NCBI GenBank assembly: GCA_023150835.1
Contig: JAKLKB010000051.1
Coordinates: forward strand, 1-49,301
Length of the DNA stretch: 49,301 nucleotides
Origin: Myxococcota bacterium
GTDB taxonomy: Bacteria > Myxococcota_C > UBA6777
Direction: 5' to 3'
Position numbers and translations under genes: made by a program. The notes under the pieces were generated by a model, which was not told the origin of the DNA, made no database searches, and saw only the letters and a program-made list of their open reading frames with translations. Shown piece by piece: positions 21,439 through 27,496 of this stretch (position 1 is the first letter of the stretch; the number at the start of each line of letters is the position of its first letter).

Positions 21439-21868
21439 AAGCGATATCTCCCGTGTACACGAGGGGATCGGATGATGCTTGTTGTTTGGAGGGGGTTCTC
21501 TTGCGTATCCAACAAGCATCGACTCGATCGTAGAAGATGCCAGCACCTTCGTGTGCTTGTCAAGTCTTGCGTCGCGAGGGCGGCAGTTCGAGCGATCCTC
21601 GAAATAGGCAAGCCAAACGAAAAGGAATGTTTCTTGGGTGTCTTGGCGCTGTGTGTGTACCTTTGGTCTTGACAAGGCGGGTGCTTTTCTATGTACTTGT
21701 GCAGCCGAAGAAACAAGAAAGCCTCATTCCTCTCGGTTGCTGCTTTTCTTTTGTTTGGTGGTGTCCCGAAGCACAAGGAAACGGTCTGTTCTTGGGTTTT
21801 GACAGAAAAACAGAACGGCACCGGCCTTCTCAACGGTGGTTTTCTGGCTAACACATCGAGGTTTTTTG
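21439..21868. other. Divergent intergenic region
   Basis: It separates a minus-strand gene from a plus-strand gene and should hold both promoters. A TTGACA at 21669-21674 lies 15 bases before TATGTA (21690-21695), a weak plus-strand promoter candidate. No gene or repeat is seen. Confidence 0.4.
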
Positions 21869-23644
21869 ATGACGATGATCTGGAGTGCTTCTCCTTTTGC
21901 GATCTTTTGGTTGGCAGCGGACCCGATCAAGATCCTCTCCGGCTTGGTGTTGGGTGTCGTCATGGTGGGGATTATGCTGTTAATTCTCCGATCTATGGGC
22001 ATCGACAGCCAGACTCCACCTGCGATGGTTTGGCGCAAGATCAAACTGTTCTTTGGGGCGTTGATCTTGCCGCTTTTGGCGGGTCGAAAGTTGAAGGAAG
22101 CGGATACCCTCGAAGAAGGGGGCAAGTTGGGCGAGGCGTTGACGATCTATCTTCGTTTGTTTGACTTTGACGGGATGTTGAGTTCAAACGCGACCCTTGC
22201 GATCCACAACGAAACGTTGCTCGAACGGATCGAGGATATCTGCGAGCGGACGGGGTATGATTTCCCTGCCGAACAGATCAACCGATTCCGCGAGGATATC
22301 TACGATTATTATCTGGTTCGCCAAAAGCACCTTACACCCGTCGATTACGACGGAACGCCGCTGCATCGGCCAGAGAACGAAGATCGTTTTAAAGACAAGC
22401 TCAACATGACCCAAGAGCGCGATCTGATCAAAGGTTTTGAGCATTTTCTTTCGACGTTGATCCAGCGTGTCCAAGAACATCTCAAACGAGGTGGCGTGGT
22501 GGCTCGCCCGCGTGTGAAAAAGCCGCAGGTGTCGCCTTCTCAGGTCGGTCTAGATGCCCCTGATGTCCCGATGGGAGCCGAAGACTCCGCCGATGCCTCT
22601 AGCGAACAAGGCGATATCTATCGCAATGATCCTGAACGCTCGCTACCTGCACGCGGTTTTGCCCATCCACCCGCCCAGTCCGTTCCCGCCAAAGAAGCCA
22701 ATCCCTTTTCCGTCGACGATCCCCGCTCTCCGTTTTCCGAATCAACAGGCACTCTTCGCAAGTTGACGGGAGTCCAAGAAGATCAACCCTCTCCTTCGGC
22801 CAATCCTTTCGCAAGCCCCGCTCCTGCCGCCCCTAGCGCAAACCCCTTTGCACAACGCAGCCAAGATGCCCTTGCTGCGGTCAACGGCGGACCCGCGATG
22901 CCGATGCAGGCCCGACCTGCCGGGATGGCTATCCCCCAACCTGTTGTGATGCCCGCGCCTGCGATGGCGGCTCCTGCTCCGCAGCCCACAGGTGGATTTC
23001 CCAACTTCGGACAAGCACCTGCAACCACACCGAGCGGTACATTCCCCGCACCCGGTGGTTTTCCCGGGGCCGCACCCCGCCCTGCTGCTCCGGGCTTTCC
23101 GCAGCCTACCTCACCACAAACGATGGCTCCACAGCCCACAGGCGGATTTCCCGGCTTCCAAGGTCCTCCGCTTGGAGGACAAGCGCCACGCCCCGCAGCC
23201 TCGGGGTTTCCGCAACCTACTGCTCCACAACCCACAGGTGGATTCCCCGGCTTCCAAGGTCCTCCGCTTGGAGGACAAGCGCCACGTCCCGCAGCACCGG
23301 GCTTTCCGCAGCCCATGACTTCTCAATCCATGGCCCCACAACCGACAGGCGGATTCCCCGGTTTTCAAGGCCCACCCCAAGCGGCTCCGATGCCGCCCGC
23401 AGGATCGCCTTTTCCACAACCGACAGGCGGATTCCCCGGCATACAAGGTCCCGCGACGGGTTCTATCCCCTCTCCTCGACCCGCAGGATCGCCTTTTCCA
23501 CAACCAACAGGCGGATTCCCCGGCTTCCAAGGTCCGCCCCAAGCGGCTCCGATGCCGCCCGCAGGATCGCCTTTCCCACAACCAACAGGCGGATTCCCCG
23601 GCTTCCAAGGCCCCCCTGCTGGTTTCCCCGGTCAGAAGAAGTAG
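21869..23644 (+). CDS. Membrane-anchored protein with Pro/Gly-rich repeat tail
   Basis: The product has 591 residues from ATG 21869 (GAGG seven bases upstream; a GTG at 21836 is possible). Two hydrophobic segments at about 3-17 and 24-42 are followed by a charged, mainly helical domain to about 220 (KEADTLEEGGKLGEALTIYL looks like one helical repeat). From ~220 on the protein is low complexity. The last ~270 residues repeat a phrase of the type FPQPTGGFPGFQGPP at least seven times, with variants. Such tails can act as flexible spacers or interaction surfaces. No known family was recognised and the function is unknown. Confidence 0.75.
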   Translation: MTMIWSASPFAIFWLAADPIKILSGLVLGVVMVGIMLLILRSMGIDSQTPPAMVWRKIKLFFGALILPLLAGRKLKEADTLEEGGKLGEALTIYLRLFDFDGMLSSNATLAIHNETLLERIEDICERTGYDFPAEQINRFREDIYDYYLVRQKHLTPVDYDGTPLHRPENEDRFKDKLNMTQERDLIKGFEHFLSTLIQRVQEHLKRGGVVARPRVKKPQVSPSQVGLDAPDVPMGAEDSADASSEQGDIYRNDPERSLPARGFAHPPAQSVPAKEANPFSVDDPRSPFSESTGTLRKLTGVQEDQPSPSANPFASPAPAAPSANPFAQRSQDALAAVNGGPAMPMQARPAGMAIPQPVVMPAPAMAAPAPQPTGGFPNFGQAPATTPSGTFPAPGGFPGAAPRPAAPGFPQPTSPQTMAPQPTGGFPGFQGPPLGGQAPRPAASGFPQPTAPQPTGGFPGFQGPPLGGQAPRPAAPGFPQPMTSQSMAPQPTGGFPGFQGPPQAAPMPPAGSPFPQPTGGFPGIQGPATGSIPSPRPAGSPFPQPTGGFPGFQGPPQAAPMPPAGSPFPQPTGGFPGFQGPPAGFPGQKK

Positions 23645-23897: not shown

Positions 23898-25163
23898 CTA
23901 GCGAGCAAGGTATTCGTCGATCGAAAGCGCCGCGCCGAGTTGTTTGAGTTTGTTTGGGAACGCTGCGAGGCGTTCTGTGAAGGCGTTTTCTTGAAGTGCG
24001 CTGCGCCCTTCGATGAAAAGTGCCGCAAGCAACAGCCCTAATTCATGGAAACCATGCAGGATGGATATCTCTGCGCTATGAAGGCGCTGTTTGGGACCGA
24101 GGTGGAGGGTGTGATCTCTTTCTGTCAAAGAGACGCCGAATTGGCGGAGTTTGCTTCGTATCTGGGCAGAAGGGTACTGCGTGTCGTGAGAAAAGGATTG
24201 TTGCGATCGAGTCAGCAACAACCAGATCCACCAAGCATCGCGAAGGATGGGAGGAACGTCGAGCGGAGGGACGCGATCGGGCGCAGGGAAGGGCTTTTTT
24301 GTGCGGAGGTGGAGCGTTTCGGGGGTGGGCCGTTGGAGATCGATCTCTGTCTCAGAAATCGCATTGATCAAGGCATCGACGCCCCAAACACGCCGTCCTG
24401 TCAGGGTGATCTGACCTGCTGTGATCATCGTCCCCAACAGCAATAACCCCGTTTCTAGCCGATCAGCGGGAAGTTGAAGTGTGGTGCTTTTTAGGGGCCG
24501 TTGTGCAGAAGAGCCACATCCGTCGACGAGCAGCGTCTTGCCTTCGCGCTGGATCGCTGCGCCCATGGATTGCAGCATCGCGATCTGTTCGTTGAGAAGG
24601 GGGTCTTCATCGGGAAATGAAAGGAGGCTCTGTCCGTCGGCTCCGAGGGCAGCGAGCATCCAACAAGACGTACGAAACGGATGTGCTGGAACACCTCGAA
24701 GATCCGCACCCTTCAATCTCGTGGAATGGAGTTTTAGGTAGCCTGTCTCTTGGGTGATGGAGACGCCCATCTTTGCAAGGCCCGTGAGTAGGCCAGACCA
24801 GACGTGTGCAGGCGTCGGATCGTAGGGCGATATCGCAAACCGCACAGCGCCACACCGCAAAAGTAGCGGTATCATCGGCCAAAGCAGCGTCTCACTTTCT
24901 CGCAATAGACCGTACGGGATCGTGCTTTCTTGTGGCGAGCCTTGGACGCGCACGCGCTCTTGCGTTTGCGCCCATGACATCCCGATGTGTTCGAGAAATC
25001 CACGCATCCGCTGGCTCTCGCCGTTTTGTGGGAGACCTTCGATCTCCAATACGCCATCCGTGATCAGCGAAAGCGAAAGTGCAAAAAGACCCAAGCTGCT
25101 AGAGCCTTGGACTTCAACGCGCCCCTCCAGTCGCTTCCCTCCATCCACGATCCATCGTCTCAA
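23898..25163 (-). CDS. MurA-like enolpyruvyl transferase lacking several catalytic residues
   Basis: This 421-residue protein has the EPT (EPSP synthase/MurA) fold and is closest by eye to UDP-GlcNAc enolpyruvyl transferase: RLEGRVEVQGS at the start, LKGADLRGVPAHPFRTSC in the middle, LPADRLETGLLLLGTMI and KLKQLGAALS at the end. Key MurA residues differ. The Lys22-Asn23 pair is Ser-Ser, Cys115 is Asp (YDPTPAHV), Arg120 aligns with His, and the DLR motif near 370 is replaced. Asp at 115 occurs in natural fosfomycin-resistant MurA proteins, but loss of Lys22/Asn23 is more serious. The start is TTG 25163, which overlaps the tatC stop by four bases (TTGA), so translation is probably coupled. It is either a divergent paralogue or a new activity, and less likely the only MurA of the cell. 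Confidence 0.7.
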   Translation of the reverse strand: MRRWIVDGGKRLEGRVEVQGSSSLGLFALSLSLITDGVLEIEGLPQNGESQRMRGFLEHIGMSWAQTQERVRVQGSPQESTIPYGLLRESETLLWPMIPLLLRCGAVRFAISPYDPTPAHVWSGLLTGLAKMGVSITQETGYLKLHSTRLKGADLRGVPAHPFRTSCWMLAALGADGQSLLSFPDEDPLLNEQIAMLQSMGAAIQREGKTLLVDGCGSSAQRPLKSTTLQLPADRLETGLLLLGTMITAGQITLTGRRVWGVDALINAISETEIDLQRPTPETLHLRTKKPFPAPDRVPPLDVPPILRDAWWIWLLLTRSQQSFSHDTQYPSAQIRSKLRQFGVSLTERDHTLHLGPKQRLHSAEISILHGFHELGLLLAALFIEGRSALQENAFTERLAAFPNKLKQLGAALSIDEYLAR

Positions 25164-27040
25164 GGTGTATCATCCTTTTTCTTGATCTCCCCATCCCGCT
25201 CTGGTTGCGATGGTTCGTGCGTCTCGGATGCAGAATATCTCTCTAATACGCTCAACGGCTCTGAGGCTTGAGCCTCGTCTGAGGTTTGGGATGGAGTGAA
25301 TTCTTCGATGAACGCGTCGGGGTCGTGGGGCGGTGGCGTGGTTTGGGTGAGGCTTCCGCGAGGCATGGTGTAACCATCGGGAGGTCGGATCGGTGGGAGG
25401 GCGGGTGGTTTTGGCGATGCCTCGGTGGGGATGGACGAGGGGGATTGTTCGGTGGCTGCGGATGAGAGGGATTGCTCGGCGACTGCGGTTTGCGGCAAGG
25501 GCGGGGCGGTGTGTGCAAAAAGGGCAGCGGTGAGTTCATTTTGAAGAAAGAGATCGCCTGCTTGTTGCTCTTGGGCTTGGGCTTCTTCGGGGGGCCGTTC
25601 GCTGGAAGAAGGCGTAAAGGGCGGAGGGAAGGGCATCACGTACGTTGTCGGATCAGGCGGAGGCGTTGGGGCGGGTGGAGTCGGTGGTGAGGGCGGAGTC
25701 GGTGGTGAGGGCGGAGTCGGTGGTGAGGGCGGATTGTCAGAGGAGTCGTTGCCTTTTCGGTTGCGCAAGAAGATCCGAGCAAAAGCGAGGCCGATCTCAA
25801 AGAGGATGTACATGGGCAGGGCCATGATCATGAGGTTTAACGGATCGCCTGTGGGGGTCAAGACCGAAGAGATGATGAGGATCAAGACAAAAGCGTGTCG
25901 GCGATATTGTGCGAGGAGTTCGGGGGGAGCGATGCCAAAGACGCCGAGCAAAAAGATCACCAAAGGCGTTTGAAAGACGATACCAAAACCGAGCAAAAAC
26001 CAAGAAGAGATGCCGAGGTAGGCTTGTAGGGTCAGGTTGGGTTTGAGTTGTCCCCACGCATCTTCGGAAGCATGGGGATAATCCCATTGGTAGCGGAGTT
26101 GAAAGCGTTGTGGAGACCCAGAGAATTGGAGGTCGATCGATTTTTGGCGCAAGAGAGATTGGACGGCTTGGAGCAGATCGACGCGCTTTGGATCGGTCGG
26201 AGGATAGAGGTTTTTGGCACGCAAGCGCAGGATCGGTTGGAGGGGGGGCTTTTTCGTCGAGGCTGCGGTGTTTTTGGAGGGGAGGGACGAGGGTTGGGAG
26301 TATTGTAGGCGTGTCGGAAGTGTCGGTAGGATGGGCGATTTGTGTGTGTGTGAAGTGGTCGGTTTGTACGTGGGCGGGGGGGCTGGTTTGTGTGTGGGTG
26401 TGGTGGTCGGGGGGCTTGGGAGCGTGGAAGTAGCGAAGAGTTGCTGGAGAGCGGGGAGATCGATCTGTAGCACAGGGCGTTTGGAGAGGGATTTGGTTTG
26501 CGGTGTGTGTTTGGGTGAGATGGGGATGGGAAGAAGTTCGAGAGTAAGTCCACCTTGACGGACGGGGGCAGCGGGCTGGGCTTGGAGTGGGCTGGCGTAG
26601 ATCAAGAGGAAGCGATAAGCCGAAGGGACGGCGATCTTGTAGGCAAAGGTTGCTCCCGCAGCGAAAAGCAAGATCGAGCTAGTGAGGACAGGCCCGATCA
26701 ATCGGCGTTCGTTGGGGTGGAGTCCGGGGGCGATAAACAGCCACGCTTGCCAGACCCAAACGGGGAAGGCAAAGAAGACTCCGGCAAAAAGGGCGATCTT
26801 GAAGGATTGAAAGAGAGGCTCGGTGAGAGAGAGGTAGTGGAGGTCGGGTTGGATGTTGGTTCCGGCGGTGGCTTCTTTGAGAGGCCCCATCAAGAAGCCG
26901 ATGATCTCTTTGGCGTAGGTGAAGCCAAAGATCGAGCAAAAGATCACTGCAAGCGAGGCGATCAGGAGGCGGGTACGGAGTTCTCCGAGATGTTGGGTAA
27001 AGGACATCTGGTGATCTTCGGCATGGAATGGTTTGGACAC
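25160..27040 (-). CDS. tatC: Twin-arginine translocase subunit TatC with a large periplasmic insertion and Pro-rich tail
   Basis: TatC is the Tat signal-peptide receptor in the inner membrane. The protein has 626 residues where ~250 is usual; it starts at GTG 27040 with AAGGA seven bases upstream. Core features are intact: HLGELRTRL (Glu20), membrane segments at ~24-42, 78-98, 115-138, 341-368, 382-395 and 401-420, and FIAPGLHPNERRL (Glu111). About 185 residues (150-335) are inserted between segments 3 and 4, in the second periplasmic loop. The insert has a Thr/Pro/Lys/His-rich part (~205-265) and a more ordered part (~270-335). Residues 430-626 are a cytoplasmic Pro-rich tail starting with PPSPPT repeats. 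It lies 15 bases after tatB. Confidence 0.93.
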   Translation of the reverse strand: MSKPFHAEDHQMSFTQHLGELRTRLLIASLAVIFCSIFGFTYAKEIIGFLMGPLKEATAGTNIQPDLHYLSLTEPLFQSFKIALFAGVFFAFPVWVWQAWLFIAPGLHPNERRLIGPVLTSSILLFAAGATFAYKIAVPSAYRFLLIYASPLQAQPAAPVRQGGLTLELLPIPISPKHTPQTKSLSKRPVLQIDLPALQQLFATSTLPSPPTTTPTHKPAPPPTYKPTTSHTHKSPILPTLPTRLQYSQPSSLPSKNTAASTKKPPLQPILRLRAKNLYPPTDPKRVDLLQAVQSLLRQKSIDLQFSGSPQRFQLRYQWDYPHASEDAWGQLKPNLTLQAYLGISSWFLLGFGIVFQTPLVIFLLGVFGIAPPELLAQYRRHAFVLILIISSVLTPTGDPLNLMIMALPMYILFEIGLAFARIFLRNRKGNDSSDNPPSPPTPPSPPTPPSPPTPPAPTPPPDPTTYVMPFPPPFTPSSSERPPEEAQAQEQQAGDLFLQNELTAALFAHTAPPLPQTAVAEQSLSSAATEQSPSSIPTEASPKPPALPPIRPPDGYTMPRGSLTQTTPPPHDPDAFIEEFTPSQTSDEAQASEPLSVLERYSASETHEPSQPERDGEIKKKDDTP

Positions 27041-27055
27041 GAGTGGATCCTTTGG

Positions 27056-27496
27056 TTATGCGTCGACTTTGCTGGATGGCTCGGAAGGATGGGAGGGCGT
27101 CGTTTCAAGGGAGGGAGAGAGTGTGGGCTGGGCGGCTCTGGCGGCATCGGAGGCATCGCCGCCACCGCACGTTGGATCGCCCATGATCGGTTCGGATTCT
27201 TGGGGAGGTTGCCAAGGGTCAAGGGATTGGTGGACTTGGTTTTGGAAGTCGCCAAGAGAATGTTGGACATCTTTGAGGGGGCCTTGGATCTCGGTTTCGA
27301 GTTCGTTTTTAAGGCGGTTGAGTTCTTCGCGTTCGAGTTCAAAGTTGATCGCATCTTTGACTTCTTGGGTGGCTCTGCGGACTTCGCGCATGGCTTTTCC
27401 CATCCATCGAGCAAACTCGGGTAGCTTGGAGGGACCGAGCAAAAGCAGGGCTGCCACCAAGATCAGGGTCATCTCCCAAACGCCGATATTGAACAT
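27056..27496 (-). CDS. tatB: Sec-independent translocase protein TatB
   Basis: This 146-residue protein has one N-terminal membrane helix (WEMTLILVAALLLLGPSKLP), the conserved hinge Gly-Pro, an amphipathic helix (FARWMGKAMREVRRATQEV) and a charged, then low-complexity tail. The helix carries a Glu near its N-terminal side (Glu8), as in TatB. TatA usually has a polar Gln or no Glu there, and the tail is longer than in TatA. Together with TatC it would form the Tat receptor complex. No separate tatA is seen in the window. Confidence 0.9.
   Translation of the reverse strand: MFNIGVWEMTLILVAALLLLGPSKLPEFARWMGKAMREVRRATQEVKDAINFELEREELNRLKNELETEIQGPLKDVQHSLGDFQNQVHQSLDPWQPPQESEPIMGDPTCGGGDASDAARAAQPTLSPSLETTPSHPSEPSSKVDA

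Follow-up and report, generated by a model that had tools for sequence, protein, structure and literature searches.

A lineage-specific insert in the second periplasmic loop of a Myxococcota TatC

The stretch of DNA analysed here (the window; 49,301 nucleotides, contig JAKLKB010000051.1 of a Myxococcota bacterium) encodes a TatC protein of the twin-arginine translocation (Tat) system that carries ~179–186 extra residues in its second periplasmic loop (P2), between membrane spans 3 and 4. Periplasmic TatC inserts are already known, and by sequence comparison this one is a new sequence at a known site. Because of its P2 position, and because constrained blocks are separated in it by a near-neutral linker, the role that we favour for the insert is that of a periplasmic cap or trimer-stabilising domain of the (TatBC)3 complex, a proposal to which we give about an even chance of being right.

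The tatC gene (25160..27040, minus strand, as are all parts of tatC described below) is one open frame of 626 codons with a GTG start; AAAGGA was found 7 nt 5' of that start, a normal spacing. Its product scored 193.6 bits against PF00902 (TatC; cut-off 25.1) and 170 against TIGR00945 (tatC; cut-off 132.7). The PF00902 match was split in two, model positions 1–128 and 131–208, which together make up the whole model, and the insert between positions 128 and 131 therefore lies in P2. The first part of the core (spans 1–3, residues 12–148, 26597..27007) had a ratio of nonsynonymous to synonymous substitution rates (dN/dS) of 0.04 and the second part (spans 4–6, residues 336–428, 25757..26035) one of 0.05, measured in a codon-level comparison with a relative of the same genus (G001) that is also the source of the other dN/dS values, identities and gap columns given here. 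The glutamates of the signal-peptide site (E15 and E103 in Escherichia coli) are kept in the motifs HLGELR and PGLHPNERR (PGLxxxER type), which bears out the intact six-span core with two conserved Glu residues noted in a preliminary description of this DNA. The span-4 glutamate (E. coli E170) is replaced by Gln in the window TatC, in all its relatives and in some other TatCs. A hydrophobicity scan placed membrane spans on either side of the insert and none inside it, and no insert of the Nitratifractor type in the first periplasmic loop (P1, spans 1–2) was found in the window TatC by alignment to the Pfam model. The upstream neighbour is tatB (27056..27496, minus strand; 146 amino acids; TIGR01410 above cut-off, PF02416 match), in the order tatB-tatC with 15 nt between the end of tatB and the start of tatC. 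The tatC stop codon is overlapped by a downstream murA-like gene, and a second TatA/B-family gene is present on contig C19. Since the core motifs and tatB are intact, the window TatC is presumably a working translocase subunit and presumably serves the export of folded proteins.

The insert covers residues ~152–330 by hidden Markov model boundaries, or ~150–335 with a variable flanking edge, in agreement with the ~185 residues assigned to this loop in the preliminary description. Block A (residues 149–172, 26525..26596) is 100% identical to its counterpart in G001 (dN/dS 0) and contains a strand predicted by AlphaFold at low confidence (GLTLELL, residues 165–170). A short variable linker (residues 173–187, 26480..26524; 71% identity, dN/dS 0.49) leads to block B (residues 188–203, 26432..26479), which is again 100% identical and has a predicted short strand and helix; block B was not found in two other genomes of the phylum (G003 and G004). 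Next comes a linker rich in Pro, Thr, Lys and His (residues 204–266, 26243..26431) with 51% identity, 17 gap columns and a dN/dS of 0.93, whose DNA holds a degenerate 24-nt tandem repeat (26320–26410). The insert ends with a C-domain (residues 267–335, 26036..26242; 99% identity, dN/dS 0.03), whose pattern in an alignment of the wider family was read as strand-helix-strand-strand, ending LKPxLTLQAYL. Purifying selection on the insert blocks (dN/dS 0–0.03) is as strong as on the membrane core. The four complete copies all have a net charge of +13 to +23 and 13–17% Pro in otherwise divergent sequences. No known domain was found in the insert in Pfam, including its peptidoglycan-binding and chaperone families, or among PDB sequences, and the C-domain, which alone was searched against PHROGs, had no match there. 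From the constrained blocks separated by a freely evolving linker we infer that the insert forms a small and basic folded domain in the periplasm, interrupted by a floppy Pro/Lys/Thr-rich loop.

The P2 insert, at ~130–180 residues, was present in all five genomes sampled from the window's phylum (G000–G004, G000 being the window genome), and it was visible even in G002, where the contig ends within tatC; the relatives sampled thus do not have short TatCs. The C-domain is conserved in the same 5/5 genomes, with one convincing copy in each (E < 1e-29), always inside tatC. Because the five genomes agree on the insert and the core and conserved insert blocks are under coding constraint, misassembly was rejected, and the earlier view of the 626 codons as one genuine frame holds. 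Of 137 genomes from across the bacteria whose TatC match was strong, only those of the window's phylum and a Myxococcus relative, G032, had the match interrupted at P2. When 193 genomes of G032's phylum were sampled, families f29, f83, f84 and f86 had a broken TatC match, and the TatCs inspected from each of these had the break at P2. The G032 TatC matched that of Myxococcus xanthus over its full length (668 bits), so the P2 inserts of this group are taken to be Myxococcus-type. Inserts of 65–144 residues in the P1 loop were observed in TatCs of several unrelated groups (L042, L043, L044, L048 and L051, from G016, G348, G276, G071 and G226). A TatC frame of 457 amino acids (L023, G059) was extended at its C-terminus by 208 residues, which apparently include two additional hydrophobic spans and end in an Arg/Trp-rich stretch.

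Long periplasmic TatC loops were reported in 2012, with P1 loops of up to 248 residues (Pirellula staleyi) and, in M. xanthus, 183 residues in P2 (PMC3712464). The structure of the M. xanthus P2 insert, determined in 2026 by crystallography (residues 127–303) and cryo-electron microscopy (cryo-EM) and represented by PDB 9e03 and 9e0s, is a homotrimer that caps (TatBC)3 and augments TatC-TatC contacts; it packs over the centre of the complex and blocks it, and transport was argued to take a peripheral rather than a central route (PMC13323110). Among PDB entries, M. xanthus TatC matched the window TatC core best, and the insertion point is the same (Pfam break at 128/131 in the window and 128/133 in G032). 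The two proteins also share a similar P2 length, an intact core, TPTGD in loop P3 and the presence of tatB. In contrast, the M. xanthus insert has no detectable sequence relation to the window insert, and that protein has neither the long Pro-rich linker nor the 200-residue tail; phmmer aligned the two core halves and a few insert-edge residues only. In the tree, Myxococcus-type TatCs grouped with the short-loop TatCs of their own phylum (support 98/96) and the window group stood apart, while a single clade for both P2-insert groups was not rejected (approximately unbiased test, p-AU 0.30). TatCs with P1 inserts (Nitratifractor salsuginis, P. staleyi, G016, G276, G071) resemble the window protein in having a large lineage-specific periplasmic insert but carry it in the loop between spans 1 and 2 (model position 55). 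Canonical TatCs (E. coli, Aquifex aeolicus 4b4a) share with it the six-span core, HLxELR and PxLxxxER, and the tatB-tatC order; the E. coli protein differs in its 19-residue P2 loop (PMC3712464), in having no long tail and in its Glu170, which is Gln in the window.

For the insert as a whole we infer a folded domain, a capping position and trimer contacts. The P2 loop of a working TatC would have acquired a lineage-specific periplasmic domain made of a few short strands and a helix with a flexible loop between them; lying close to the three-fold axis, this domain would cap (TatBC)3 on its periplasmic side and would strengthen TatC-TatC contacts, as the unrelated M. xanthus P2 insert does. Several observations weigh against this proposal. 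No homology of the window insert to the M. xanthus domain was detected (hhalign probability 0.03%; pairwise scores within those of shuffles), and the analogy with M. xanthus is consequently one of position. Similar function need not follow from a shared insert site. The insert of N. salsuginis, which sits in the other loop and is unrelated to that of M. xanthus, was disordered in cryo-EM (PMC13323110). Two AlphaFold models of the monomer placed a helix and strands at the C-domain with a confidence too low to establish a fold (mean pLDDT, the predicted local distance difference test, 43.7 and 47.9), because the input alignments held only the window sequence and one or two relatives. A broader version, which we put forward tentatively and regard as unlikely, is that of a convergent Tat 'lid': an insert without detectable relative, restricted to one small phylum and to TatC, that arose independently at the Myxococcus site and either caps or gates the Tat core or links it to the envelope through its elastic basic loop.

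Other roles can be weighed against the same data. The insert might be a periplasmic docking or anchoring module for peptidoglycan, anionic lipid or a partner (a chaperone or Tat substrate maturase). Its Pro/Lys-rich loop would then serve as the tether. The positive charge and Pro content retained by otherwise divergent inserts would fit such a module, as would the murA or murA-like gene directly after tatC in 5/5 genomes of the phylum, which is an association of neighbourhood only. However, the would-be tether is near-neutral and the insert matches no Pfam family of the expected kinds, and we consider this role unlikely. The Thr/Pro/Lys/His-rich stretch, previously suggested as a docking or cell-wall site, evolves almost without constraint and for that reason is better regarded as a linker than as a specific binding site; contact with peptidoglycan might still be made through its net positive charge. 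It had also been supposed that the mature portion of a substrate emerges precisely at the position of the insert. This is unlikely given the M. xanthus P2 insert, a trimer over the centre (PMC13323110), and a built-in exit-site chaperone touching folded cargo on its emergence, although compatible with a periplasmic site between spans 3 and 4, is disfavoured by that structural work and by the missing match to a chaperone family; we judge it very improbable.

A further alternative is that the loop expansion was mostly non-adaptive, with P1 and P2 tolerant of inserts and residual constraint preserving only harmless folding and topology. P1 and P2 inserts with unrelated contents recur in several lineages (also PMC3712464), low-complexity Pro-rich stretches are common in the window (17% Pro in the neighbouring protein encoded at 21836–23644), and the cytoplasmic tail has been lost in two genomes. 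These observations would agree with neutral expansion, but the insert blocks have dN/dS values no higher than those of the membrane core, and the C-domain is retained throughout the phylum sample; both speak against it, and we consider it unlikely.

The cytoplasmic tail (residues 429–626, 198 residues, 25163..25756) is Pro-rich, acidic and of low complexity, with an overall dN/dS of 0.34 and an 18-nt tandem repeat at 25656–25733; no known domain was found in it in Pfam or among PDB sequences. The ~200-residue Pro-rich tail of the preliminary description is thus present in the window but varies between genomes: G000, G001 and G003 have a long tail, whereas in G004 and G002 it amounts to just a few residues. 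The G003 tail is similar in length and different in sequence, with a PxIRPP motif common to both; the window and G003 tails aligned with a score of 116, equalled in 1/500 shuffles, a borderline result given the biased composition. The tail is best regarded as a disordered extension in which change and even loss are tolerated.

Directly downstream of tatC, the MurA homologue (23898–25163, minus strand) is degenerate (98.7 bits, cut-off 392.7): neither the KN of the usual GAKN motif nor the loop with the catalytic Cys (GGCAIGARPVD) can be recognised. A normal MurA follows tatC in G003, G004 and G002, whereas G000 and G001 encode a further MurA (435 bits) at another place. The window homologue is still constrained (dN/dS 0.24) and has perhaps been repurposed. 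The neighbour at 21836–23644 (plus strand) encodes 602 amino acids with a Pro/Gly-rich tail of repeats like PQPTGGFPGFQGPP; it had no Pfam match, and similar Pro-rich neighbours occur in relatives.

A different enlargement of TatC was observed in family f93, where the TatC match lay within a frame of 855–1266 amino acids in 24 of the 27 TatC-bearing genomes. In G258 (L090:1477-5061, minus strand) TatC and an LptD-like barrel protein (PF19838 LptD_2, 145 bits) share one frame of 1194 codons, and such a fusion is conserved in the family. At the six f93 junctions read, a stretch resembling a signal peptide came immediately after TatC and ended in LHAQ, ASAQ, LRAQ or similar, which suggests that signal peptidase cleaves a TatC-LptD polyprotein. 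A literature search found no TatC-LptD fusion, and the f93 case may merit separate study.

The insert by itself leaves the known Tat mechanism unchanged. Despite the high conservation of the Tat translocase, unrelated domains sit in the same periplasmic loop in some lineages. If these are convergent trimer caps, they would amount to a natural experiment that asks whether transport changes when (TatBC)3 is stabilised or closed on its periplasmic side. The window insert would then also offer cryo-EM a convenient handle, as its Myxococcus counterpart did.
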